Assembly: GCA_900290335.1 (NCBI GenBank)
Contig: OKRD01000013.1
Span: 87,329-126,048, forward strand
Reading direction: 5' to 3'
Source of the DNA: Burkholderiales bacterium
GTDB lineage: Bacteria > Pseudomonadota > Gammaproteobacteria > Burkholderiales > Burkholderiaceae_F
Length of the DNA stretch: 38,720 nucleotides
Below, piece after piece: positions 23,248 to 26,887 of the stretch. Positions within the stretch are counted from its first letter, which is position 1; each line of letters opens with the position of its first letter. The notes beneath the pieces were generated by a model. It ran no database searches, was not told the origin of the DNA, and saw nothing but the letters and a program-made list of their open reading frames with translations. Both the position numbers and the translations under genes were made by a program.

Positions 23248-25548
23248 CTAACGCTGCGAGTTGGCGTCGACCACCGCCAATGCTGCCATGTTGACGATGC
23301 GGCGCACGGTCGCCGACGGCGTCAGAATGTGCACCGGCCGGGCGGCGCCGAGCAGGATGGGGCCGACGGCGACGTTGTTGCCGGATATGGTCTTTAACAG
23401 GTTGTAACTGATGTTGGCGGCGTCGATGCCCGGACACACCAGCAGATTCGCGTCGCCCCGCAGCGTGGAGAACGGCATGATCGACTTGCGCAACCCCGCA
23501 TCGACCGCGCAGTCCGCATGCATTTCGCCATCGATTTCCAGGTTGGGCGCAAGGGCGCGGACCAGTTCCAGCGCGCGCCGCATCTTGGTCGCCGAAGCCG
23601 CGTCGCTGGTGCCGAAGTTGGAGTGGGACAGTAGGGCGGCGCGCGGCGATATGCCCAGGCGGCGCAGTTCCTCGGCAGCGTTGATCGTGATTTCGGCGAC
23701 TTCCTCGGCGCTCGGATCGACGTTGACATGGGTGTCGACGAGCGCGATCTGACGCCCGGGGAGCATCAAGATGTTCATCGCCGCGTACACCTTGGCCCCG
23801 GGGCGCCGCCCGAGCACCTGGTCCAGGTAGCGCAGGTGAATGCCGTGGGTCCCAAAGGTGCCGCAGATCATTGCATCGGCGTCGCCCTGATGGATCAGCA
23901 TGGCGCCGATGAGCGTGTGCCGGCGGCGCATCTCGATGCGCGCATACTGCTCGGTGACGCCGCGGCGGGCCGTCATGAGGTGGTAGGCCCGACAATACTG
24001 CCGATAGCGCGGGTCCGACTCGGGGTTGACGATTTCCATGTCGGCGCCCGGGCGCATACGCAGCCCAAAGCGCTCCAGGCGCCGTTCGATGACGGCGGGC
24101 CGCCCGATCAAGATCGGCCGGGCGACGCTCTCGTCGACCACCACCTGCACGGCTCGCAGTACCCGCTCGTCCTCGCCCTCGGCAAACACGACCCGGCTCG
24201 CGCCGCCGCCCGCATGCGCCTTCTTGGCCATCGTGAAGATGGGCTTCATGAAGGTACCGGAGTGATAGACGAACTGCTGCAGTTGCGCGTGATACGCGTC
24301 GTAATCGGTCAATGGCCGGGTTGCGACCCCGCTGCGCATCGCCGCCTGCGCGACCGCGGGCGCGATGCGCAGCATCAGTCGAGGGTCAAAGGGCTTGGGA
24401 ATAATGCACTCGGGTCCGAAACTCAGGTTGCTCACGCCGTACGCCGTGGCAACCTCGTCGCTGGTCTCCTCCTGCGCCAACTGCGCTATGGCGTGGACCG
24501 CGGCAATTTCCATCTCTCGGGTGATGGTCGTGGCCCCCACGTCGAGCGCGCCACGAAAGATGAAGGGGAAACACAGTACGTTGTTGACCTGGTTCGGGTA
24601 GTCGGAGCGCCCGGTGGCGATCAGCGCGTCGCTGCGCACGGCCTTGACCTGCTCGGGCAGGATCTCCGGCGTGGGATTGGCCAGTGCCAGGATCAAGGGG
24701 GCGGGCGCCATGGCGCGCACCATGTCGCCGGTACATACCCCGCCGGCCGATAGCCCCAGGAAGATGTCGGCGCCCTGCATCAGATCGGCGAGGGTGCGGG
24801 CCTGGGTGGCCTGGGCGAAGCGCGCCTTGTCTTCATCCATGAGCTTGGTTCGCCCCTGGAATACCACGCCCTCGATATCCGCAACCCAGATGTTCTTCCG
24901 CGGCAACCCGAGTTCGACCAGAAGCTCGAGGCATGCCAGCGCGGCAGCGCCGGCGCCGCTGCACACCAACTTGATCTGCGCCAGCGACTTGCCGACGAGT
25001 TGCATGCCGTTGAGCACCGCGGCGCCGACAATGATCGCCGTGCCGTGTTGATCGTCGTGGAATACCGGGATCTTCATGCGCTCGCGCAGCCGCCGCTCGA
25101 CGCGGAAGCATTCGGGCGCCTTGATATCCTCGAGATTGATCGCGCCAAAGGTCGGCTCCAGCGCCGCGATGATCTCTACCAGGCGGTCCGGATCCGTCTC
25201 GCTGATCTCGATGTCAAACACATCGATGCCGGCGAACTTCTTGAAGAGCACCGACTTTCCTTCCATCACGGGCTTGGCGGCGAGCGGTCCGATGGCACCT
25301 AGCCCCAGGACCGCGGTCCCGTTGGTGATCACTCCCACGAGGTTTGCGCGTGCCGTGAGCCGCGCGGCGGCACTCGGATCGGCGACGATCGCCTCGCAAG
25401 CCGCGGCGACGCCGGGAGAGTAGGCAAGCGCCAGATCCCTCTGGTTGATCAGCTGCTTGGTGGGGGTGATCGATATCTTCCCCGGCTGCGGAAACTCGTG
25501 GTACTCGAGCGCGGCACTGCGGAGATCGGCATTGGGGGAGGTAGGCAT
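23248..25548 (-). CDS. maeB: NADP-dependent malic enzyme with C-terminal phosphotransacetylase-like domain
   Basis: 766 aa; [32 protein letters not shown] ... [23 protein letters not shown] ... C-terminal PTA-like [21 protein letters not shown] ... [25 protein letters not shown]. Confidence 0.95.
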
Positions 25549-25768
25549 GGGGGCGGGTCGGCAGATAATAAAAGTGGATTATCGAACGCTCCGGCTGTCG
25601 GCGCGCGGCCAGCACGCGCGCAGCCACTGCAAGGCGCGGCAATGCGGGGCAGGCGAAATGGCCGCCCGCCGTGGCACTTGGTCATGTTCTCCGATCGTTG
25701 CGCCGCTCGGCGGCTTTGCCCGCGCGCCGCTTTGTTCAGCCAAATGCCTGTTTTGCCCTGGACAAAAG

Positions 25769-25798
25769 TTGACCTTGACCCGCACGGGAGGATATATT
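25769..25798 (+). promoter_or_regulatory. Candidate sigma70-type promoter for the sRNA (-35 TTGACC 25769-25774, 18-nt spacer, -10 TATATT 25793-25798)
   Basis: Near-consensus hexamers in an intergenic region, about 15 nt upstream of a structured element ending in a T-run. Confidence 0.55.
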
Positions 25799-25804
25799 TG
25801 CGCT

Positions 25805-25919
25805 GTGTTCTCCAGAGCCTGTCGCAAGGCCTGAGCGCGCAAACCCTTTACTCGGTGCCTCTCCTCCCTCCCTCCTCAACCGATTCTGGGTGCGCTCGGC
25901 CGACAGGCTCTTTTTTTTT
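25805..25919 (+). ncRNA. Candidate small RNA: rod-shaped hairpin with CU-rich anti-Shine-Dalgarno apical loop and intrinsic terminator
   Basis: Perfect 11-bp closing stem 25814-25824 (agagcctgtcg) / 25901-25911 (cgacaggctct) followed by T9. Internal helices 833-838/892-897, 843-846/888-891 and 852-856/879-883 (offsets from 25000). 22-nt loop gcctctcctccctccctcctca carries three overlapping CCTCC. No ORF explains it. Confidence 0.7.
25901..25919 (+). terminator. Rho-independent terminator of the candidate sRNA (3' arm of the closing stem plus 9 T's)
   Basis: cgacaggctc ttttttttt; 5' arm of the stem at 25814-25824. Strongest intrinsic terminator I noticed in the window. Confidence 0.75.
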
Positions 25920-25999
25920 GCCTGCACCAAATCCTTGCAAGGTGATGCGCGTAGCAACGCCACCCGCGCGGGAAGCTTTCGGAGCCTGTGCGCCTCGCC

Positions 26000-26887
26000 T
26001 CAGGCGGGATTTTGCTTGCGCGCGAGCTGGGTCGGCAACTCCGGTGGCACGGCGCTGGTCATGGGAGCATCCATCCCGTCGCCTGCCGGACGGGTATCCG
26101 ATCGCAGGCCCGCGGCGAGCGCCGCGGCCACACCGCCGCCGGCGGCGAGCTTGAGTCGCCCGAACTCGCCCAGAACCCGGCTGGCATAGCCCCCATCGTC
26201 GGAGAGGTTACCGGCACCAACATAGAGCTGCAGGCCACGCTCGACGGAGCCGCCGCGCCGGATTACGTCGCTAAGAATCTGCGATCCGACCTGGATATTG
26301 GTGACCGGATCGAGAGCGGCGATCGCGCCTTTGCGTTCAACGAACTTGCCCCCATGCACGCCGGGCATAACCTGCATGAGACCGGTCGCGCCGACCGGGC
26401 TCTGCGCGAAGGGATTCATGCTCGATTCGACGGCAACGACCGCCAGGATCAGCAGCGGATCGATCTGTTGCTCCTTGCCCGAAGCGTGGGCCGTTGCCAC
26501 CATGACCCGTACCGCCTCGTCTGCGACGTGGTAGCGCCGGGCCAGGTACGAGGCGACCTTGGCATCAGCCGGCTCGAGCACCACCTGCCCTCCGATCCGC
26601 AGCCCGTCCGAATCTTCCTCCGCCGCGTTATCGGGCAGGGCGTCCTCGGTGGCGCGATCGCCAAAGGCTTCCCCGATGCTGGAGCCAAGCTGTGCCATGG
26701 GCGCGCGCAAGCCGGGGGCAAGCGCGACGAACATCAAAACCAGCACGCTGACCAAGCCTATGGCCTCCAGCGCCGCCCGTGCCGCAGTGGCCACGGTATG
26801 CGCCAGATCGCCCCGCGGCCGTCCAGCCCTGGGTCTTCGCATGCCCACCGAATCTGGGCATGCGTTTACAACGTTGGATTCAATCAT
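26000..26887 (-). CDS. Lytic transglycosylase (SLT domain), membrane-anchored
   Basis: N-terminal TM (AIGLVSVLVLMFVALAPG); SLT blocks IDPLLILAVVAVESSMNPFAQSPVGATGLMQVMPG ... NIQVGSQILSDVIRRGGSVERGLQLYVGA. Confidence 0.9.
   Translation of the reverse strand: MIESNVVNACPDSVGMRRPRAGRPRGDLAHTVATAARAALEAIGLVSVLVLMFVALAPGLRAPMAQLGSSIGEAFGDRATEDALPDNAAEEDSDGLRIGGQVVLEPADAKVASYLARRYHVADEAVRVMVATAHASGKEQQIDPLLILAVVAVESSMNPFAQSPVGATGLMQVMPGVHGGKFVERKGAIAALDPVTNIQVGSQILSDVIRRGGSVERGLQLYVGAGNLSDDGGYASRVLGEFGRLKLAAGGGVAAALAAGLRSDTRPAGDGMDAPMTSAVPPELPTQLARKQNPA

Follow-up and report, generated by a model that had tools for sequence, protein, structure and literature searches.

The stretch of DNA analyzed here (the window) is 38,720 nt from a Burkholderiales bacterium and contains, between two protein-coding genes of the reverse strand, a candidate sRNA gene on the forward strand at 25805..25919. 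On its promoter side lies the divergent ORF of maeB (malic enzyme, 23248..25548), a name which comes from the earlier note and the protein sequence, and which agrees with the MaeB searches and with the genes flanking homologues. On its terminator side lies the convergent ORF of a lytic transglycosylase-like (SLT) gene (26000..26887), likewise named from that note and the sequence. The ORFs agree with the location that had been described, between the 5' end of maeB and the 3' end of SLT. A -35 hexamer TTGACC (25769..25774) and, 18 nt further on, a -10 hexamer TATATT (25793..25798), which together resemble a sigma70 promoter on the forward strand, were read from the sequence and also recovered by a promoter scan as the sole promoter-like site on both strands of 25560-26000, where shuffled sequences lead one to expect 0.1. 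Placing the start 7 nt past the -10, we infer a transcript of approximately 115 nt. The 5' arm of a closing (terminator) stem (25814..25824, AGAGCCTGTCG) is the exact reverse complement of its 3' arm (25901..25911, CGACAGGCTCT) over 11 bp, and the T9 run of the intrinsic terminator (25911..25919) follows, its first T belonging to the stem. Between the arms, at 25857..25878, are 22 nt (GCCTCTCCTCCCTCCCTCCTCA) with three CCTCC cores on a period of 4 nt. Promoter, stem, T-run and cores are thus present where the earlier note had placed them.

RNAfold analysis of 25806-25919 gave a minimum free energy (MFE) of -47.0 kcal/mol, compared with a mean of -29.2 ± 3.3 kcal/mol for shuffled sequences (z -5.4), and none of 200 shuffles folded as well. 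The 22-nt loop at 25857-25878 was unpaired and the centroid was identical to the MFE structure, so the open loop claimed from reading the letters was also obtained by computation and the CU-rich segment was not drawn into pairing. Only 10 of the 11 outer closing-stem pairs were formed, as the innermost nucleotides are taken up by the adjoining helix.

When 60 relatives were searched with blastn, each of the six congeners and seven further members of the family gave a match, with none from 24 genomes of other families. A covariance model (R1) built from 14 homologues identified a single copy of the RNA in each of 17 family genomes out of 67; these include all seven of the genus and represent 7 of 18 genera. 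The model detected no copy in 387 non-family Burkholderiales genomes (400 were searched, 13 of which belong to the family) or at 28 maeB loci from outside the family, and a class-wide sample of 387 returned only the copy in the window; in searches as large as these only a few candidates per genome are scored, and distant copies could therefore be missed. Named records carrying the loop pattern were from Burkholderiales, Betaproteobacteria and unassigned Proteobacteria MAGs, and the pattern was also scattered in unrelated taxa, where it may be due to chance.

The homologues fold as a single rod consisting of the closing stem, a middle helix (rearranged in two congeners), a short helix and an apical stem of 4-6 bp which bears an open CU-rich loop. 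When the window structure was mapped on an alignment of 17 sequences (A3), 89.3% of cells were paired, compared with 24-46% for slid controls. For the closing stem (helix 1) the figure was 96.7%, with three pairs changed on both sides. Overall 11 of 28 pairs showed changes on both sides, a number that shuffles attained 4 times in 500; the shuffle control ignores phylogeny, so these counts are supportive and not proof, and some were lowered because MAFFT misaligned one sequence (L037). Loops were 22, 20, 18 or 17 nt long and contained one to three CCUCC cores. The length steps of 2, 4 and 5 nt are mostly not multiples of three, which argues against coding, and the step from 22 to 18 nt corresponds to one CCTC unit.

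Mean identity over 17 genomes was 0.71 for the RNA body, 0.79 for the loop and 0.26-0.27 for the flanks (coordinates in this profile are shifted by one base), and loop conservation centred on CCUCC. The -35 hexamer had a mean identity of 0.86 in the 17 genomes, and the first 14 homologues all have TTGAC. Identity of the -10 was 0.81 in the genus and 0.35 across the family, so that this element is only weakly conserved outside the genus. A T-run was found in every homologue, although it is interrupted in one (G011). The homologues, the compensatory stem changes and the conserved open loop give good support to the earlier proposal that an sRNA gene with a promoter and terminator of its own, and with an open anti-Shine-Dalgarno (anti-SD) loop, lies in this intergenic region. 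We consider it likely that the gene encodes an independent, trans-acting anti-SD sRNA, the first example of a lineage-specific RNA family from an uncultured group of Burkholderiales.

In the mechanism we propose, the transcript would form one rod in which the closing stem and U-tail double as the intrinsic terminator, and the tip of the rod would present the CU-rich loop with its one to three CCUCC cores. The loop would most likely pair with GGAGG-type Shine-Dalgarno (SD) sequences of several mRNAs, blocking 30S binding and lowering translation of those mRNAs. Since the loop mimics the sequence with which the ribosome finds its messages, the RNA probably lowers translation of mRNAs with strong ribosome-binding sites. 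Predicted duplexes of the loop with short SD-like sequences had energies of about -8 to -11 kcal/mol, while an 11-nt complement gave values of up to -24.6 kcal/mol. It is plausible that many mRNAs are affected. Perfect 9-nt complements near ATG were few and differed between genomes, and no conserved extended target was found among them. Neither maeB nor a ubiD-like neighbour has an SD matching the loop, and SLT was the only neighbour with a fair predicted duplex (-16.8 kcal/mol). The RNA might instead serve as a decoy for a ProQ/FinO-type or Hfq-type protein or for ribosomal protein S1. The ligands of such proteins are rod-like RNAs with a U-tail and a pyrimidine-rich loop, a general likeness which the present RNA shares. 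However, conservation of the loop is centred on CCUCC and pairing is how the known anti-SD sRNAs work, and we regard a decoy function as unlikely.

Divergent maeB was the promoter-side neighbour in all homologues for which flanks were read, while the gene downstream of the sRNA varied. In many genera the latter was a codirectional aminotransferase-like gene, which in several of them (for example at L041, L042, L043, L049 and L058) lay within roughly 100-150 nt. This proximity would be expected if the RNA acted in cis on the aminotransferase gene, as its leader or attenuator; termination at the rod would then be regulated, and the copies in the window's own genus would be relics. In that genus, however, the downstream gene is convergent (SLT-like in the window) and the congeners read had no codirectional aminotransferase, which rules out leader function there, yet the body (identity 0.79), promoter and terminator are conserved. 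Moreover, no competing antiterminator fold was seen in the window RNA. A leader function is accordingly quite improbable, and the trans-acting sRNA remains the reading we prefer.

The fixed place beside maeB suggests that this sRNA has a role in adjustment to carbon source or growth. MaeB was also searched for in 22 family genomes that lack the sRNA, of which 16 gave only distant hits, with identities not above about 35%, and 6 gave orthologue-like hits. In three of those six (G016, G019, G022) neither the sRNA nor the palindrome described below was present upstream of maeB, and in the sRNA-less G031, which also has an orthologue-like MaeB, the region ends at a contig edge. At one locus of another family (L151) CCTCC-rich stretches and T-runs were observed upstream of maeB, at distances of approximately 60 and 407 bases, with no match to R1. 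The genome of the window itself carries a second MaeB-like gene, 65% identical, at a contig end (G000:C75:6-1127).

The earlier note had overlooked both this family-wide constancy of the maeB linkage and a conserved palindrome, TTTGCCCTGGACAAA, at 25752..25766. The palindrome, to which no strand is assigned, lies just upstream of the -35 with its centre at about -46 from the predicted start, and the upstream alignments of homologues give a consensus of approximately TTTGwCCwrGACAAA. A 33-bp stretch which includes it had a mean identity of 0.51 over 17 genomes, compared with 0.27 further left. The palindrome travels with the sRNA, since both are absent upstream of maeB in G016, G019 and G022. 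It is probably an operator, and a factor bound there would probably control synthesis of the sRNA. A search for a palindrome regulon found 0-2 other exact-consensus sites per genome, none of them consistent. In a congener, a GGDEF-like gene is preceded, at a distance of about 50 bp, by one perfect copy (TTTGTCCAGGACAAA; L128:1501-1515; G002:C1:1510789-1510803). It is possible, and we put this forward tentatively, that the family is a distinct single-rod anti-SD family, bearing its regulatory loop on the terminator hairpin, which has its own operator-bound regulator and whose function is tied to carbon metabolism through the malic-enzyme branch. A search for the inducer and the regulator could start from the constant maeB neighbourhood and the conserved palindrome.

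No Rfam 15 family scored above threshold in the window. A weak match to McaS (17.6 bits, cut-off 42) was rejected because the terminator stem accounted for most of it. The Betaproteobacteria toxic small RNA family (RF02278), which includes the double-hairpin RNAs ncS03, ncS05, ncS27 and ncS62 of Burkholderia cenocepacia, resembles the maeB-linked sRNA in being made up of short intergenic sRNAs of Burkholderiales with an exposed CU-rich loop complementary to ribosome-binding sites and a T-rich intrinsic terminator. RF02278 was detected in 40 of 60 Burkholderiales genomes but gave no match in 25700-26000 up to E 10, and the best homologue reached 21.6 bits, far below the gathering threshold of 50. 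Its members have two consecutive hairpins (about 57-92 nt; PMC5688073), one with the CU-rich loop and a separate terminator, whereas the window RNA and its homologues form a single nested rod. They occur in several copies per Burkholderia genome and away from maeB, whereas the maeB-linked sRNA is present in one copy and with the palindrome. When 30 RF02278 loci were fetched from Burkholderiales, maeB was beside none of them, their upstream sequence differed by eye and model R1 aligned mainly at their terminators. The earlier note had left the RNA as a member of this family, a divergent member or a new class; membership in RF02278 is refuted by these findings and we hold it to be very improbable, and a new family is the option that survived. 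Two weak RF02278 matches, both below the cut-off, were seen elsewhere in the window's own genome and are anti-SD candidates on the reverse strand. The first (L002:1501-1555; G000:C8:19424-19478; 30.9 bits) consists of a hairpin bearing a CCCTCCTGTCTCCTCC loop, after which comes a separate terminator hairpin, and the second (L001:1501-1569; G000:C139:45531-45599; 32.4 bits) has a CU-rich, TCCTCC-containing loop and a separate terminator.

Hairpins are frequent in GC-rich DNA, but a chance hairpin or repeat element is hardly credible given the shuffling result, the single copy per genome and the compensatory changes across seven genera.

The open, conserved CCUCC loop and the predicted promoter and terminator of its own are features of trans-acting anti-SD sRNAs, and the maeB-linked sRNA apparently represents a new RNA family of this known functional kind, unlisted in Rfam 15. 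It would extend the short list of anti-SD regulators with a compact type that uses a single hairpin both for termination and to carry the seed loop. In RepG of Helicobacter pylori, too, pairing is carried out by a C/U-rich loop within the terminator hairpin. The target of RepG is a G-repeat in the leader of tlpB, and RepG is unrelated in sequence and lineage (PMC8295292). Exposed CCUCC-type anti-SD motifs are shared with the alpha-r14/NfeR1 and cuckoo RNAs (PMC10746234, PMC10253847), whose regulated promoter with a conserved upstream motif may be likened to that of the maeB-linked sRNA. Those RNAs carry several anti-SD hairpins, in the alphaproteobacterial NfeR1 three, each with CCUCCUCCC, whereas the fold and the homologues here show one; Rfam matches up to E 10 included no cuckoo-type family. 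The NmsRA/NmsRB RNAs of Neisseria have UC-rich anti-SD regions (PMC5362039), as here, but are paired siblings of another order with three stem-loops and the anti-SD sequence partly between hairpins. Overexpression of ncS27 slows growth (PMC5688073), NmsRA represses mRNAs of the TCA cycle and makes E. coli grow more slowly (PMC5362039), and NfeR1 silences mRNAs at the SD (PMC10746234). These three RNAs are functional analogues with experimental support; NmsRA and NfeR1 belong to other bacteria and are regarded as unrelated to the maeB-linked sRNA.
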